Origin: Herminiimonas sp.
Lineage (GTDB): Bacteria > Pseudomonadota > Gammaproteobacteria > Burkholderiales > Burkholderiaceae
DNA: 64,000 bases
Direction of reading: 5' to 3'
Assembly (NCBI RefSeq): GCF_030655415.1
Contig: NZ_JAURVN010000015.1
Span: forward strand, 310,001-374,000
Both the position numbers and the translations under genes were made by a program. How positions within the stretch are numbered: the stretch's first letter is position 1; the number at the start of each line of letters is the position of its first letter. A model generated the notes under the pieces. The model was not told the DNA's origin. It worked only from the letters and a program-made list of their open reading frames with translations, and did not search any database. This document shows positions 33,485-40,985 of the stretch, piece by piece.

Positions 33485-33610
33485 CAACTATCCGCAGAGC
33501 GCAGTTCTACGCTTTTCTTTATTGCAGAAAAGCGTATTCAGATCAGCAACATTTCGCCTATCCCGCTGGTAGAATCAGAACACCGCCACTCTTGGTCAGT
33601 GCTGACTCCC

Positions 33611-36600
33611 ATGCAAAAATCCCTCCAGCAGTTGCCCCAGTCTTTACGTCAACTTTCCGGCAAGCCGGCTTTCAGACGAACTGCGATCGGGCTGGTGATT
33701 TTCATCGTCTTTATCGGCTTGTTTGGCTACTTTGCGCTGCCCGGCATTATCAAGTCGCAAGCTGAAAAAATCATTTCCGAAAAACTGAATCGGCAAACCA
33801 CAATAGGCCAGGTCGAAGTCAGCCCTTACGCGATGCGTCTTACCTTGCGCGACGTCAAGATGATGGAGCCGGAAGGCGATGTGAAGTTTGCAGGCTTCGA
33901 CGCACTGACCGTCAATTTATCCATCCAATCACTATTCCGCTTCGCACCAGTAGTCGAACAATTGCAAGTCAGCGCGCCGTATGTGCATCTGGTGCGCAAG
34001 GACGACACGCATTACAACATCGATGACATCATCGAACTGATCAATAGCCAACCGCCTTCGCCAGAACCGGCGCGCTTTTCTGTCTTCAATATCGAGATCG
34101 ATAGAGGACATATTGAATTCGATGACAAACCAGCCAAGACCGTGCACAAGGTCACTGACTTGAAAATCGGCGTGCCCTTTATTTCATCACTGCATTCCAA
34201 AATCGATGTATTCGTCGAGCCATTATTAAGCGCCAACGTCAACGACACGCCGCTGCTGATCAAGGGAAAAACACTCCCCTTTGCCGATCCTGTACAAGCT
34301 GTGGTTGACCTGAATCTGGACAATCTGGATCTCACTACGTATTTGAAATACATCCCGGGCACGCCGCGTTTCAAAGTGCCAAGTGCACGCCTTGATCTAC
34401 ATTTGATCGCGAATTTTCAGCAACCAAAAGATAAAGCGCCAGCGCTGCTGCTGAGCGGCGACATCAAGTTGAAATCGCTGCAGCTGAATGATCAAGACAA
34501 TAAATCCATCATCAAACTGCCTGAGCTTGCCGTCACATTAAAAGATGCGAGCCTGCTGAGCGATCGTATAGAAGTCGCCAAGCTAGCAATCAACGGTGTA
34601 GAAGCTGACATTACACGCAATGCAAATCAGCAGTTCAATTTTGAAAATCTGCTGGTGCCACCGACAGGCGCAGCGCCATTAAAAACAGCGAAAAAACCTG
34701 CGGTCGAACCTGCAACAATCACGACTGCAGATCCAACTACAACAGCAAAACCGGCAGTGGTTGCGGAACCTACCAAACCGAAAGCTGCACTCAGTTTTGC
34801 ATTGGCAGAACTGGATATTAAAAATGCCGCGCTGCGTTTTACCGATATGCAGACTGCGCATCCTATGCAAGCCAAGGCAGAAAAGTTTGATCTGAGCGTG
34901 CGCAAAATTGAAGTTGATACTGGCAGCAAAATCGTCAGCGTCGATGAAGTCGTTTCGAATCAAGCCGCTTTCTTTTTGCAACAAGACAAACCACGCGCAG
35001 ACTCCGGCAAAGTCGCAGCGCCTGCTAGCAGCAAAACTAAAAGTAACGATGCCAGCGCTGCTTACGTCGTCAATGTCAAAAAAATTGGCATCGATAATTG
35101 GTCAGCACGATTGGAAGATCGCAGCCTGAAACGTCCCGCTGTCACCACTATAGAACCATTGAAGTTAGCCCTGCAAGACATCTCGACCAAGGCTGGAGCA
35201 CGCGGCAAACTCGACTTGCAAGCTGCGGTCAATAAAACCGGCAAGCTGGCAGTCAGCGGCGATCTCGGCATGGCACCTTTGCATGCAAATCTGGCGCTCG
35301 ACTTGAAGAACGTCGACATCATGCAAGTGCAGCCCTACATCACCGACAAGATCAATATTCTTTTGACGCGCGCTGACATCTCCAGCAAAGGCACGCTGCA
35401 AATAGACGAAGGAAAAAATGGCGAACTGCTGGGCGGCTTCAAAGGCGATCTGACGCTGGGCAATCTCGCGACCGTAGACAAACTCAGCACCAGTGAATTT
35501 TTACGCTGGAAGTCTTTGTATTTCGGCGGCATGGATGTACGCCTCTCACCGCTCGCCCTGAACATCGATCAAATTGCGCTCAATGATTTCTTTGCACGCG
35601 TAATTCTCGATCCAAACGGCCGCATCAACTTGCAAGATATCCGCGTAGTGAACACCGGCGGCGTACAAAAAAGCGTGACAGAAGCAGCACCGACCGTAGC
35701 ACCGGCACCGATTGCACCCGTCGCAGAAAAAACCGCAGTACTACCGCCGCCAGCAAAAGCAGCCAGCGATATTCCACCTATCAAAATCAAGAAATTGACG
35801 ATGCAAGGCGGCCACGTTCGCTTTACCGATAATTTCATCAAACCAAACTACACCGCCAACCTGATGAAATTTGGTGGAGTGGTTAGTGGCTTGTCGTCGG
35901 ATGTAAATTCCAGCGCCAACGTCAATTTAAAAGGCGAAGTAAATAGCGCACCGCTCAACATCGACGGCAAGATCAATCCGCTCAAGGGCGATTTGACGAT
36001 GGATATCAAAGCCGCAGTGCAAGGCATGGAACTGGCGCCGCTATCCGCTTATTCCGGCCGTTACATCGGCTATGGCATCGAGAAAGGCAAGCTCTCTTTT
36101 GACGTCGCCTACAAGGTAGAGAATCGCGTACTCACTGCGCAGAATCGACTAGTTCTAGAACAACTAACGCTAGGCGAAAAAATTGAAAGCCCAACTGCAA
36201 CAACGCTACCTGTGAGCTTTGCCCTGTCGCTGCTGCGTGACAGAAACGGCGTGATCGACATCAATCTACCGATAGGCGGCTCACTCGATGACCCTCAGTT
36301 TTCCGTAGGCGGCTTGATCGTCAAGGTCATCGTCAATATCCTGACGAAAGCAGTAACAGCACCATTCAGCTTGCTGAGTTCGATGTTCGGTGGCGGCGAA
36401 GAATTATCGATGCTTGAATTCGACGCAGGCCGCGCCCGCATCAATGACGCTAGCGAAACCAAACTGAAAAGCATGGCGAAAATATTAGTGGATCGCCCTG
36501 CGCTGAAACTCGAAATCACAGGCCGCACCGATCCTGAAGCAGATCGCGAAGGTTTGAAAAAAGCATCCATAGACCGCAGAGTCCGCGCCTTGAAATTAAA

Positions 36601-36970
36601 AGACATGGTCGGTCGCGGCGAATCCGCTGAAGCAAACAGCATCACCATTACGCCACAAGAATATCCAGCCTTGTTGAAACGTGTTTATAAAGACGCCGAC
36701 TTCAAGAAACCACGCAATATGGTCGGCCTGCAAAAAGATATACAGGTTGAAGAAATGGAAAATCTTTTAAGCACCAACGCCACCGTCAGCGACGACGATT
36801 TGAATTCACTAGCCAATCGCCGCGCACAAGCGGTGAAGGACTGGCTGACCGGTGAAGGCAAAGTCCCGGATACGCGGATTTTCATACTGGGTTCGAAGTC
36901 GGGTAATCAAGGTGCTAAAGACGACGCGGCTAAAGCGAAGGCGAATCGTGTGGATTTTTCTTTGAAATAA
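33611..36970 (+). CDS. Large AsmA-like DUF748 envelope protein with OmpA-like tail
   Basis: 1119 residues from the ATG at 33611; a GTG at 33599 is an alternative. One N-terminal membrane helix (AIGLVIFIVFIGLFGYFAL, about 26-45) follows a basic leader. Then long DUF748 repeats: GQVEVSPYAMRLTLRDVKM, PYVHLVRKDDTHYNIDDII, and later KKLTMQGGHVRFTDNFIKPNYTANL. Two Pro/Ala/Thr-rich linkers lie at about 355-395 and 695-725. From about 935, LEFDAGRARINDASETKLKSMAKILVDRPALKLEITGRTD resembles the OmpA C-terminal peptidoglycan-binding fold. Relatives are thought to bridge the envelope and move lipids. Role not established; single gene. Confidence 0.85.
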   Translation: MQKSLQQLPQSLRQLSGKPAFRRTAIGLVIFIVFIGLFGYFALPGIIKSQAEKIISEKLNRQTTIGQVEVSPYAMRLTLRDVKMMEPEGDVKFAGFDALTVNLSIQSLFRFAPVVEQLQVSAPYVHLVRKDDTHYNIDDIIELINSQPPSPEPARFSVFNIEIDRGHIEFDDKPAKTVHKVTDLKIGVPFISSLHSKIDVFVEPLLSANVNDTPLLIKGKTLPFADPVQAVVDLNLDNLDLTTYLKYIPGTPRFKVPSARLDLHLIANFQQPKDKAPALLLSGDIKLKSLQLNDQDNKSIIKLPELAVTLKDASLLSDRIEVAKLAINGVEADITRNANQQFNFENLLVPPTGAAPLKTAKKPAVEPATITTADPTTTAKPAVVAEPTKPKAALSFALAELDIKNAALRFTDMQTAHPMQAKAEKFDLSVRKIEVDTGSKIVSVDEVVSNQAAFFLQQDKPRADSGKVAAPASSKTKSNDASAAYVVNVKKIGIDNWSARLEDRSLKRPAVTTIEPLKLALQDISTKAGARGKLDLQAAVNKTGKLAVSGDLGMAPLHANLALDLKNVDIMQVQPYITDKINILLTRADISSKGTLQIDEGKNGELLGGFKGDLTLGNLATVDKLSTSEFLRWKSLYFGGMDVRLSPLALNIDQIALNDFFARVILDPNGRINLQDIRVVNTGGVQKSVTEAAPTVAPAPIAPVAEKTAVLPPPAKAASDIPPIKIKKLTMQGGHVRFTDNFIKPNYTANLMKFGGVVSGLSSDVNSSANVNLKGEVNSAPLNIDGKINPLKGDLTMDIKAAVQGMELAPLSAYSGRYIGYGIEKGKLSFDVAYKVENRVLTAQNRLVLEQLTLGEKIESPTATTLPVSFALSLLRDRNGVIDINLPIGGSLDDPQFSVGGLIVKVIVNILTKAVTAPFSLLSSMFGGGEELSMLEFDAGRARINDASETKLKSMAKILVDRPALKLEITGRTDPEADREGLKKASIDRRVRALKLKDMVGRGESAEANSITITPQEYPALLKRVYKDADFKKPRNMVGLQKDIQVEEMENLLSTNATVSDDDLNSLANRRAQAVKDWLTGEGKVPDTRIFILGSKSGNQGAKDDAAKAKANRVDFSLK

Positions 36971-37195
36971 CGGCGCTTGCAAAAAAACAGAGCGATACAG
37001 ACTTTTAATCGCTTTTAATCAGGGGAAAAGACCAACGCTACAGAAGAATTGATGTTGCCGCTTTTGATTTTGTTTACGGCTACTGATTCTCGCAGTACTT
37101 TTTTTATGAAGTAACCATGTGAATTTTTACGGGAAAGGCGCGCCCAGTTACATAGCGGCTCCCAAATTATCCATCACTTCTCCGGTTTAAACCGA

Positions 37196-37202
37196 GTTAG
37201 GC
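37196..37202 (+). other. Cassette-boundary motif GTTAGGC
   Basis: Matches the integron core site G|TTRRRY exactly and sits 3 nt before the ATG of the next ORF, as in gene cassettes. Upstream, a CGGTTTAAACCG palindrome (37184-37194 area) could be the L' side, but I cannot find a convincing partner arm, so a full attC here is not shown. Confidence 0.5.
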
Positions 37203-37205
37203 GCT

Positions 37206-37391
37206 ATGAGCATCATCGACCTTATCGTTGCTCCCGGCACTGCCGTAGGTTGTGTCATCGGGATAGCTATTGCTGTTGGTTTGAATTGGCTATTTCCAGA
37301 AAAAGATTTGATAACGCCTCAAGCATTGGTTGTTGTTGCTACTACTGCTGTTGGAATGTTTTTCGAGTTTTGGCCGCCTAGGAAGGACTAA
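37206..37391 (+). CDS. Small membrane protein in an integron-like cassette
   Basis: 61 residues, ATG three nt after GTTAGGC. Two hydrophobic helices (IDLIVAPGTAVGCVIGIAIAVGLNW and LITPQALVVVATTAVGMFFEF) joined by a short charged turn (PEKD), with a C-terminal PPRKD. I recognise no family. The composition (membrane hairpin), the low G+C content and the cassette-like placement (no promoter space upstream, attC-like site 26 nt after the stop) suggest a mobile cassette gene. Whether it is expressed is unknown. Confidence 0.6.
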   Translation: MSIIDLIVAPGTAVGCVIGIAIAVGLNWLFPEKDLITPQALVVVATTAVGMFFEFWPPRKD

Positions 37392-37416
37392 AACGAATAC
37401 TCCAATTAACTTCGCG

Positions 37417-37510
37417 GGCTAACCCCATCAATCATAAGTGACTGCAGAACTGACGTGGCGAAATTCTTCAACCGCCATCGCGTCGCAGCCCCTTACCTTC
37501 AACGTTAGGA
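37417..37510 (+). repeat. attC-like recombination site
   Basis: Foldable 94-nt imperfect inverted repeat lying between two ORFs. Outer pair CTAAC (37419-37423) / GTTAG (37504-37508). Inner stem 37435-37445 (taagtgactgc) with 37485-37495 (gcagcccctta), 9 of 11 pairs. Then gacg (37452-37455) / cgtc (37481-37484) and tggcg (37456-37460) / cgcca (37473-37477), closing a 12-nt loop. The left arm has extra unpaired bases, as attC sites do. The right part (cagccccttaN..CGTTAG) and the left GACTG..CGTGGCG resemble Vibrio-type attC sequences as I remember them. The last base of GTTAGGA deviates from GTTRRRY. Confidence 0.72.
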
Positions 37511-37514
37511 TTTT

Positions 37515-38138
37515 ATGTATTGCGATAAATGTTTCACATTGAGTTCAGACAAAAGTACCCATTGCATTCAATGCGGGAAGACCTTCTTTGAGGAAAGGCC
37601 TAAACTTCAATCTCCCATCAAGAAATCAAACGACGGCATAGGCCTTTTTACAGGTATCGCAGGGCTAGCAGTTGGTCTATATTCCGGCATATTTGTACTG
37701 CTGCTGTTAGCGGCTTACGGCGTGACGTCTTGGTGCGGGAAGAAATTCTTAAATCGAAAAGCAATTCCATTCCTTCCTACTATCGCAGTACAAATTAGTT
37801 TGATAGTCATTCCTACGACCTTTTACTTAATTCTTTACCTAAAAGGGTTAATGCCACTATCAGCAACGTTTCTCTTAATAGATATGAGTCTTCCGTGTAT
37901 TGGTCTTATATGGCTGATAAAGAAGCCAGGCGTGAAGCCAGCAATTGCACTTAGTGTTTTCCAACTAGTTACTCTCGGTGTGAACGTTATGGCTATTTTA
38001 GAAATGGATATTGGTACCCAAAATCACAAAGCACTTGCAAACTATATAGTTTGGCGTGTAGGTGCCCTATATCTTTTGTGGGCTCCGTTTTTATGGCGTA
38101 AGGAAGACATTATTCATGACACAGAAAAAGTATTCTGA
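37515..38138 (+). CDS. Zinc-ribbon multi-pass membrane protein in a cassette
   Basis: 207 residues, ATG four nt after GTTAGGA; the TTAGGA itself can serve as ribosome site. N-terminal zinc ribbon MYCDKCFTLSSDKSTHCIQCG (CxxC about 3-6 and 17-20), a polar linker, then five or six membrane segments (about 42-190). No family name is recognised beyond zinc-ribbon membrane protein. It is clearly AT-richer than the chromosomal flanks. The second cassette of the putative cluster; its downstream attC is not clear (see 38139-38220). Confidence 0.7.
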   Translation: MYCDKCFTLSSDKSTHCIQCGKTFFEERPKLQSPIKKSNDGIGLFTGIAGLAVGLYSGIFVLLLLAAYGVTSWCGKKFLNRKAIPFLPTIAVQISLIVIPTTFYLILYLKGLMPLSATFLLIDMSLPCIGLIWLIKKPGVKPAIALSVFQLVTLGVNVMAILEMDIGTQNHKALANYIVWRVGALYLLWAPFLWRKEDIIHDTEKVF

Positions 38139-38633
38139 CTCGTCGCTGAACCTAGGCACGCAAGCTTGTTTGTTAGCTGAGTGCAAACACGGCTATTTCA
38201 ATTCATCGTCATTAAGGTTTGTGCTTCTGCAATGCAGAAGGCGAGCCGAACCAATCGTTCTTCCGCTTTGACGCTGCCGTTTGTGCGGAGCAGAAAATGG
38301 AAAAAGAAGTGAACGCTGTCTGAGCGCAGCGAGTTTCGTTCGCTTCCCATTTTTTGATTTGCACAAACGGGAACCCGAAGGGCAGCGGCTTGCGGTCGCT
38401 TTTTTGGGTTACCTTTTTTGGCGAAGCAAAAAAGGGTAACTAGCCGCCGGGCTACCCCCGGCAACTGAGCCAGCCCGAAGAAAACACCCCATCAGCTACC
38501 AGCAAACGTGACAACAAGAAACATCCCTCAATAAACTGCATTTCATCTCCCGAGTTTTCACCTCTGTCAAGACTGGCGCAATCGTCTAGATTGCGTATCA
38601 TCTAGCGCTCGCTACACTCATTAATCAATATTC
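38139..38633. other. 495-nt non-coding region between cassette ORF and tex
   Basis: The first 80 nt contain GTTAGCT (38172-38178), a possible decayed cassette end. Then a structured repeat fills about 38220-38475. The last 120 nt before tex hold no ORF. An 88-codon minus-strand ORF here (38198-38464) is discounted because it follows the repeat's hairpins. Confidence 0.6.
38262..38476. repeat. Structured non-coding repeat element
   Basis: Long imperfect inverted repeat: ccgtttgtgc..aaaatgg (about 38267-38296) pairs with ccattttttg..gcacaaacgg (about 38346-38370). Beyond it, gttaccttttttg (38408-38420) pairs with caaaaaagggtaac (38427-38440) around GCGAAG, and gccggg (38446-38451) with cccggc (38457-38462). 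From memory, closely similar blocks recur in intergenic DNA of Burkholderiales and give spurious ORFs on the opposite strand. Repetition cannot be shown within this window. Role unknown. Confidence 0.6.
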
Positions 38634-40985
38634 ATGCTGCCTTCCATAGAACAACGTCTCGCCGTCGAACTCGCGGCCAAACCCGTACAAGTTGCTGCGG
38701 CAATCGCCTTGCTGGATGAAGGCGCGACCGTGCCTTTTATTTCCCGTTACCGCAAAGAAGCAACCGGCGGCCTGGATGACATCCAGCTGCGCTTGCTGGA
38801 AGAACGCCTGCGCTATTTGCGCGAACTGGAAGACCGACGCGCAGCCGTCATTGCATCCATCGAAGAACAAAACAAGATGACGCCGGCGCTGCTCGACGCT
38901 ATCACACATGCAGAAGACAAAACCCGTCTGGAAGATCTGTATCTGCCATACAAGCAAAAACGTCGCACCAAGGCGCAGATCGCAGTCGAAGCCGGCCTGA
39001 CAGAATTAGCCGATGCATTGCTGGCTGATCCAACATTGAATCCTGAAGAAGAAGCGGCGAAATATTTGAAGCCTGCGTTCACCGTGGATGGCATCGACAA
39101 TCCCGGCGTGGTTGATACCAAAGCTGCCCTCGATGGCGCACGCCAGATTTTGATGGAGCGCTTTGCCGAAGATGCAACGTTGCTGCAAGCCTTGCGCGAA
39201 TACCTGACTGAGCACGGCATCGTTGAATCCAAAGTAGTCGAAGGTAAGCAGGATGCCGGTGAGAAATTCGCCGATTATTTCGATTACTCGGAGACCATCG
39301 GTACCATTCCTTCGCATCGCGCACTCGCATTGTTCCGCGGTCGCCGCGAAGAAATGTTGAACGTCAATTTGCGTCTGGATACCGAAGAAGAAAAACCAAA
39401 GTGGGATGCGCCGCACAATCCGTGTGAAGGCCGCATTGCAGCGCGCTTCGGTATCAGCAATAAAAATCGTGCTGCCGATAAATGGCTGGCCGATACCGTG
39501 CGCTGGACCTGGCGCGTGAAAACTTTCATGCATCTGGAAACCGAGTTGATGACCAACTTGCGTGAGAAAGCAGAAGTCGAAGCGATTCACGTTTTTGCAT
39601 TGAATCTGAAAGCGCTGCTGCTGGCAGCACCGGCTGGCCCGCGCGCAACCATGGGTCTCGACCCAGGTTTGCGTACCGGCGTCAAGGTTGCGGTGGTCGA
39701 TGCGACCGGCAAAGTGGTCGATACCGCGACCGTCTATCCGCATCAACCGCGCAACGATTGGGAAGGCACTTTGCACACGCTGTCGCAATTGGCAGAGAAG
39801 CACAAAGTTGCATTGATCTCTATCGGCAACGGCACCGCATCGCGCGAGACCGACAAGCTGGCGCAAGACTTGATCAAGCTGCGTCCTGAATTAAAGCTGA
39901 CGAAAATCGTTGTGTCGGAAGCCGGCGCATCGGTGTATTCAGCATCTGAATTTGCGTCGCGCGAATTACCGGATATGGACGTCTCAATACGCGGCGCAGT
40001 ATCCATTGCACGCCGCTTGCAAGATCCATTGGCCGAACTGGTGAAGATCGATCCGAAATCAATCGGCGTCGGCCAGTATCAGCATGACGTCGGCCAAACC
40101 CAATTGGCGCGTTCGCTCGATGCGGTCGTCGAAGATTGCGTGAATGCGGTCGGGGTTGACGTCAACACTGCCTCTGCACCATTACTGGCGCGCGTGTCGG
40201 GCTTGAACAATAGCGTTGCACAAAGCATCGTCAGCTATCGCGACATGAAGGGCATGTTTGCATCGCGTGCCGATTTGCGCGCAGTGCCGCGTTTGGGCGA
40301 CAAGACGTTTGAACAAGCTGCAGGTTTCTTGCGCGTGATGGTCAGCGACAATCCACTTGATGCGTCGGCAGTGCACCCGGAGTCGTATCCGCTGGTTGAA
40401 AAAATCCTGGCTGACATCAAGCGCGATGTAAAAAGTATCATCGGTGACGAAAAAACATTGAAGTCTTTGAATCCGGCCAAATATGCGGATGAGAAGTTTG
40501 GCGTGCCGACGATTACCGACATTTTGAAAGAGCTGGAGAAACCAGGTCGCGATCCGCGTCCAGAGTTCACCACAGCGACTTTCAAGGATGGCGTGGAAGA
40601 GATGCGCGATTTGCGTCCTGACATGATTCTGGAAGGCGTGGTGACTAACGTTGCAGCCTTCGGAGCGTTCGTCGATATCGGCGTGCATCAGGATGGGCTG
40701 GTACATATTTCCGCGCTGTCGAACACCTTTGTCAAAGATCCACACACGGTGGTAAAAGCCGGTCAGGTCGTGAAGGTCAAAGTGCTGGAAGTGGATGAGA
40801 AACGAAAACGTATCGCTTTGACAATGCGTTTATCCGATGCCGCACCAGTGGCTGGCAGCAAACCTGAGCAACGCGCAGATCGTAACGATAGCAAGCGCCT
40901 GTCGCAGCATCAGAACCAACAAGGACGGCAAGCGGAGTCCGGTAGTAGCGCGATGGCAGCGGCTTTTGCCAAACTCAAGGGATAA
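38634..40985 (+). CDS. tex: Tex-family RNA-binding transcription accessory protein
   Basis: 783 residues, normal family length. Domains in order: helical Tex N terminus ([25 protein letters not shown]), YqgF/RuvX-like domain (about 330-460, [16 protein letters not shown]), two helix-hairpin-helix units (about 500-575, [16 protein letters not shown]) and an S1 RNA-binding domain (about 668-735, [27 protein letters not shown]). A Gln/Arg-rich tail follows. Binds nucleic acid and affects transcription and virulence genes in studied species. Single gene with its own upstream non-coding block. Confidence 0.96.

Follow-up and report, generated by a model that had tools for sequence, protein, structure and literature searches.

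A small gene pair between DUF748 and tex in Herminiimonas sp. is very probably left over from an integron cassette array without an adjoining integrase

Two small foreign genes lie between the housekeeping genes DUF748 and tex in a 64-kb stretch of the genome of Herminiimonas sp. (64,000 nucleotides; here called the window), and it is very likely that they are what is left of an array of integron cassettes lacking an adjoining integrase. The best reading, held with strong confidence, is a decayed, integrase-less array at a site that has been used repeatedly. Integrase-less cassettes are common and may arise by any of three routes listed in PMC8618304, namely, off-target insertion, loss of intI, and rearrangement. 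Here, 14 related genomes show a single gap in different states (empty, attI-bearing, cassette-bearing, and decaying), and this comparison, together with a relative whose integrase is intact, makes the routes testable.

RESULTS

Layout of the locus

The left border of the locus is a conserved DUF748/AsmA-like gene (positions 33599 to 36970; plus strand, like all features described below), which was identified by a Pfam match and is found in relatives. Its product shares 88% identity with the H. fonticola protein (L001) and 85% with the protein of a Burkholderiales bin (L005). The right border is tex (38634 to 40985), likewise a Pfam match and present in 13 of the 13 genus-level genomes searched; in a tree of tex DNA, the nearest rows to the window are G005 (L005) and G001 (L001), with full support. 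Between these neighbors lie a leader (37020 to 37195), a GTTAGGC core (R'; 37196 to 37202) that starts the first cassette, ORF1 (37206 to 37391), the attC site of cassette 1 (37417 to 37510) with its GTTAGGA core at 37504 to 37510, ORF2 (37515 to 38138), and a probable decayed attC of cassette 2 (38133 to 38189). The ORFs begin 3 and 4 nt behind their cores and have a G+C content of 45% (ORF1) and 40% (ORF2) versus 52% for the window, and a simple promoter scan listed no plus-strand promoter between 36940 and 38022. Core positions, spacing, AT-rich ORFs, and the lack of promoter room all agree with a preliminary description of this DNA. To the left of the GTTAGGC core, no left half of an attC was seen, leaving a half site.

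A dispersed genomic repeat (38196 to 38500) lies to the right of the array and was recognized by repeat searches of the window and of the genus genomes. The window has one copy, and 12 of the 13 genus genomes have 2 to 18 matches each. In L001, L005, and L063, copies flank the insert on its right, and in L092 one follows the single cassette. A link between this repeat and cassettes, considered on account of the copy behind the L092 cassette, was rejected, since the repeat is scattered through the genus and is not cassette specific.

ORF1 and ORF2

ORF1 encodes a hydrophobic orphan of 61 amino acids, and ORF2 encodes a protein of 207 amino acids with two CxxC pairs at its start followed by five predicted helices; by inspection, both appear to be small membrane-type proteins. 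Neither belongs to a family in Pfam, NCBIfam, or PADLOC. Among 5.8 billion proteins, ORF1 retrieved its own record only, and ORF2 retrieved five matches, one of them nearly identical (P0001, which is left out of alignment A2 of ORF2 relatives) and four at 51 to 86%. The predicted structure of ORF2 (five helices; mean pLDDT of 62.5, a poor model) had no match in the PDB at E ≤ 0.001. No relatives of ORF2 were found in plasmids or IMG/VR, and none of either ORF in arrays elsewhere. ORF2 was also without a match in the 392 family and 399 order genomes sampled, searches that had no positive control and show little. Both ORFs are missing from the tex locus of six named relatives (L001 to L006). The preliminary description had proposed this comparison and had counted the lack of a covariance-model attC hit, combined with the presence of both ORFs at the same place and with conserved flanks in all relatives, as a refutation of the cassette cluster; that outcome did not occur.

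An attC site lies between ORF1 and ORF2

The 94 nt at 37417 to 37510, with R'' at 37417 to 37423 and R' at 37504 to 37510, are an attC site. Motif counts and plain folding were tried as evidence for it and rejected, since neither separates the site from chance. The GTTRGRY motif, which occurs 26 times in the window versus 39.6 expected, carries no weight alone. Plain folding of the site was weak (z of -1.41 for the bottom strand and -0.60 for the top strand), and when the R box was imposed, the bottom strand reached -12.9 kcal/mol versus a free minimum of -13.0 kcal/mol.

Because motif and free folding were uninformative, we built an attC covariance model without any sequence of this genus. 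A search for intI in 392 family genomes gave 46 genomes at E ≤ 1e-60 and 43 over the curated cutoff. Twenty stretches beside intI were fetched, and candidate sites were collected by script; 14 stretches yielded sites, and four had no candidate. L085 and L086 each lost one poor candidate; two L081 sites and one each of L080, L084, L073, and L083 were dropped by hand as poor; L061, from the same genus, was deliberately excluded; and only sites on the expected strand were taken. Removal of near-copies reduced 66 sites to 52, drawn from the 14 stretches beside intI outside the genus and modeled with R and L boxes paired. Pair counts are inflated, because the training sites were selected for pairing.

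Searched against both strands of the window at E ≤ 10, the model gave a single match, at 37417 to 37510 on the plus strand (16.9 bits; E = 0.075). In 1.7 kb with the filters off, the same site ranked first among 12 matches (E = 0.002; next match, 0.17). The covariance search suggested in the preliminary description thus returned its exact 94-nt site, though weakly. Direct alignment gave 70 of 94 identical bases with a 93-nt attC of L080 (local score of 86; best of 500 shuffles, 32) and 67 and 65 of 94 with two 93-nt attC sites of G062. In the alignment to the 93-nt sites, the right arm is nearly unchanged and the L'' arm is degraded. A candidate filter written for attC sites missed the 94-nt site, which the covariance model and direct alignment recovered. 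At E ≤ 1, Rfam offered one weak match only, to a plant-virus pseudoknot, which was set aside. A blastn search with the 123-nt stretch around the site found no plasmid match.

Cassette logic and a probable second site

In three intact arrays, R'' mirrored the core of its own cassette at 7 of 7 positions in 26 of 37 neighboring pairs versus 208 of 649 other pairs. In cassette 1 of the window, an attC with paired boxes follows the ORF, and the R'' of this attC mirrors the cassette's own GTTAGGC core at 6 of 7 positions (5 of 7 for the linear attC match). For cassette 2, TTCTGAC at 38133 to 38139, which overlaps the ORF2 stop codon, pairs with the GTTAGGA core at 7 of 7 positions (five, plus two G-T pairs); it is unique in 38101 to 38260, and 0.075 places pairing this well are expected per 40 nt. 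TTCTGAC is probably the R'' of ORF2's own attC. Two stretches picked out by eye, GCTGAAC (38145 to 38151) and GTTAGC (38172 to 38177), suggest the L'' and L' boxes of the same site, whose R' core would be gone, so that cassette 2 retains a probable R'' and L boxes only. The preliminary description had seen a possible decayed site in GTTAGCT at 38172 to 38178. These letters may indeed be part of one, but they fit an L' box better than a core.

With the filters off, the attC model recognized neither a left nor a right attC of the window. One attC by model, a half site on the left, and a right side that looks decayed make the earlier wording "CALIN-like" apt. The right end of the insert (38125 to 38200) resembles that of G062 (L060:1350-1430; score of 32 versus a best of 29 in 500 shuffles), perhaps as a shared attC remnant. 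Between the window and L005, the inserts' right ends bore hardly any resemblance (score of 25; 31 of 500 shuffles as high).

The DUF748-tex gap in relatives

Among the 13 genus-level genomes, the gap was empty in five (G002, G003, G151, G173, and G184; about 177 to 193 bp), held other genes in seven (G001, G004, G005, G006, G062, G103, and G162), and was interrupted by a contig end in one (G195). The tex tree requires at least two changes to account for the empty state, and both gain and loss therefore happened.

In Oxalicibacterium flavum (G006; L006:13324-14960), an attI-like leader is followed in the gap by three short ORFs and, after these, by a longer gene; the two attC sites there scored 45.8 and 31.9 bits, and the cores match at 7 of 7 positions. 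The leader aligned with the G062 sequence separating intI from the first cassette (score of 75; best of 500 shuffles, 48), and both end in TCTAAATATAGTTAGGC. The tex gap of O. flavum thus carries an attI-like leader with no integrase. In G162 (L063:7173-7751), a leader is followed by a different ORF, weakly HepT-like and below the Pfam cutoff, and by a decayed attC that belongs to the same sequence family as the window's (score of 92; best shuffle, 47); the model gave this G162 site only 3.2 bits. The L005 gap has the leader and then a SHOCT-domain gene; a lipoprotein gene was assigned to the G005 gap. The L001 insert starts with the last 15 bases of an attC of the window/G162 family. In G062, GTTAGGA stands about 20 nt behind DUF748 and is followed by a 345-amino-acid ORF. 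The G062 and G005 gaps yielded no demonstrable attC. The gaps of G004, with a DUF4062 gene (L004:6215-7303), and G103, with an HNH-like gene recognized by eye (L062), had no attC match at E ≤ 5. PADLOC gave no match for the two gap genes tested, those of L004 and L063.

A leader common to three genomes

The window leader is homologous to the G162 leader (score of 170; best shuffle, 48) up to the GTTAGGC junction, beyond which the genes differ. Its similarity to the L005 leader is weaker (score of 95; best shuffle, 56). When the window leader was compared with the attI of O. flavum and of G062, 192 and 213 of 500 shuffles, respectively, scored as high, and among the regions 5' of intI at 30 loci, none rose above the maximum of 100 shuffles (L044 equaled it). 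The window leader is attI-like or attG-like by position and last bases only. Searched as DNA against 392 family genomes, it had six matches (G162 and G005 at tex, 39 nt elsewhere in G062, and three weaker ones); the genus genomes added three further weak matches. That the window, G162, and L005 have this leader in common, each with other genes after it, shows a single fixed boundary, as expected both if the gap had been an attI platform and if cassettes had been inserted off target.

The window-G162 alignment also has nine identical bases beyond the core region, CTATGAGCA. We take this identity to reflect constraint on the start plus chance, although it is still a point against cassette exchange. 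Within the leader, window positions 37105 to 37130 contain GAAGTAACCATG, which is also present in L005 and G162. On visual inspection, a short frame starts there and continues across the junction in G162, whereas in the window a stop follows immediately. The attI1 site has small leader ORFs, which the GAAGTAACCATG frame recalls.

Integrase and cassettes elsewhere in the genus

No IntI-like protein was found in the 64-kb window (tblastn; nine IntI queries; E ≤ 0.01), as the preliminary description had stated, and none of the six genomes G001 to G006 has intI over the cutoff. G062 has one intI. Reading six other genomes as negative, given their absence from the positives of the 392-genome search, intI occurs in 1 of 13 genomes of the genus. 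Across 13 gaps, among them that of the window, no IntI remnant was found (best E, 0.8). Forty intI-bearing family genomes (of the 43 over the cutoff) were searched for tex, and in none does intI lie beside it; the smallest distance between the two on a shared contig is about 133 kb, and many pairs are split between contigs, some of them short.

The G062 integron, 308 kb from tex, has an open intI of 328 amino acids and five attC sites (L061:7073-10616) and by eye lies beside pyruvate dehydrogenase-type genes; further attC sites in this genome are a cluster of four at C1:505163-507046 and a single site at C1:781076. A genus-wide attC scan (E ≤ 0.1) found sites in at least 8 of 13 genomes, two of these eight only at E of 0.05 to 0.06, and at least ten sites in G062; as at most 150 candidates were scored per genome, these counts are lower bounds. 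Among the candidates scored, no site was found in G162 or G001, indicating that the scan misses decayed sites. Away from tex, single cassettes whose bounding core and R'' agree at 7 of 7 positions occur in G184 (C54; L090) and G005 (C16; L092), two of five sites tested. No intI was found in G184 and G005, and cassettes in genus genomes without intI imply that cassettes outlast the integrase in this group.

DISCUSSION

The identification as a cassette remnant draws on the model match at the exact site, homology to attC beyond all shuffles, the mirroring of R'', and the low G+C content of the ORFs, and also on the absence of both ORFs from six relatives, the attC sites and attI-like leader of O. 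flavum, and the same leader with another ORF in G162. Counting against it are the modest model score (E = 0.075), the left and right attC missed by the model, and the 3.2 bits of the G162 attC, together with the lack of attC in the G062, G004, G005, and G103 gaps, of ORF relatives in arrays, and of intI beside tex, and the CTATGAGCA run past the core, which exchange between G and TT does not predict. If the gap were instead a generic insertion hot spot that took up genes by other means, the resemblance to attC would be due to chance. The DUF4062, lipoprotein, and HNH-like genes of G004, G005, and G103, in gaps with no attC evidence, and the chance-level motif counts and plain folds would suit such a hot spot, but the homology of the 94-nt site to attC, far beyond the shuffles, contradicts it for the window and the clear attC sites of O. 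flavum contradict it at the same place there; we regard it as highly improbable. Even less credit, close to none, goes to the idea that the ORFs are old native genes of the lineage that were never inserted. Nothing beyond their intact reading frames speaks for it, and it is contradicted by the absence of both ORFs from the loci of the six named relatives and by the attC homology; that ORF2 was not found in the 392 family or 399 order genomes sampled, in searches run with no positive control, also points away from it.

If the locus is a decayed cassette array, an integron integrase would have joined circular cassettes, in an ancestor, between the G and the TT of a fixed site behind DUF748. Cassettes would then have been exchanged behind DUF748 in different lineages, and the array, now without an integrase, would be frozen and decaying, as may be seen in the degraded L'' arm and a second attC that is mostly gone. 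We put the chances at about even that the site was a former attI platform at tex that lost its intI, and we lean toward this origin because O. flavum keeps an attI-like leader in its tex gap. A fuller history would make the gap an attI platform in the ancestor of Herminiimonas and Oxalicibacterium, with intI lost in nearly all descendants and the site refilled, after the split of the window and G162, by an integrase acting in trans; in this complete form the proposal is tentative and rather unlikely.

An origin by off-target insertion has a substantial chance, somewhat short of even. An integrase elsewhere in the ancestor's genome would have put cassettes into an attG-like secondary site that was never a platform, leaving the cassette identity of the array unchanged and altering its origin alone. 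This is one of the three routes listed in PMC8618304. It fits a G062 integron that lies 308 kb from tex and a G062 insert that begins at GTTAGGA about 20 nt behind DUF748, the single cassettes with 7-of-7 cores elsewhere in G184 and G005 (two of five tested), and the absence both of intI beside tex in 40 intI-bearing family genomes and of an IntI remnant in 13 gaps. Cassette insertion would not, however, have brought the attI-like leader of O. flavum to the same place, and the leader common to the window, G162, and L005 points to an old fixed boundary. Rearrangement, the third route in PMC8618304, would have excised part of a cassette array, its attI included or not, from an integron at another chromosomal position and transferred it to the tex gap. 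This would account for an attI without intI in O. flavum, but 7 of 13 genomes have different genes in the gap, which one move does not explain, and no mobile element was recognized at either border, where the specific search covered the 38196 to 38500 repeat only; we consider this origin improbable.

Literature searched on Herminiimonas and Oxalicibacterium integrons and on Burkholderiales CALINs gave no evident account of a DUF748-tex cassette locus. Among known systems, the sedentary chromosomal integron of G062 has related 93-nt attC sites and GTT cores, whereas the window has no integrase or demonstrable attI and, lacking an intI gene, is not a complete integron. A single attC without an integrase has been called a SALIN. 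Cassette insertions at attG sites (Loot et al. 2024, as described in PMC12901181 and PMC12444791) are similar in that they occupy a chromosomal intergenic site with no integrase. In E. coli, such insertions are reported to be widely spread (PMC12444791), whereas here one gap was used repeatedly, and the attI-like leader of O. flavum at this locus is a further difference. CALINs of Xanthomonas sit at conserved places and are defined by at least two attC sites, according to PMC12444791. The present locus resembles them in its chromosomal cassettes and attC, in having no integrase within 64 kb (E ≤ 0.01), and in its conserved place, and differs in having one attC by model, which falls short of the strict two-attC rule. 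The kind is thus already known, as CALINs at conserved places, and this locus shows its history unusually clearly.
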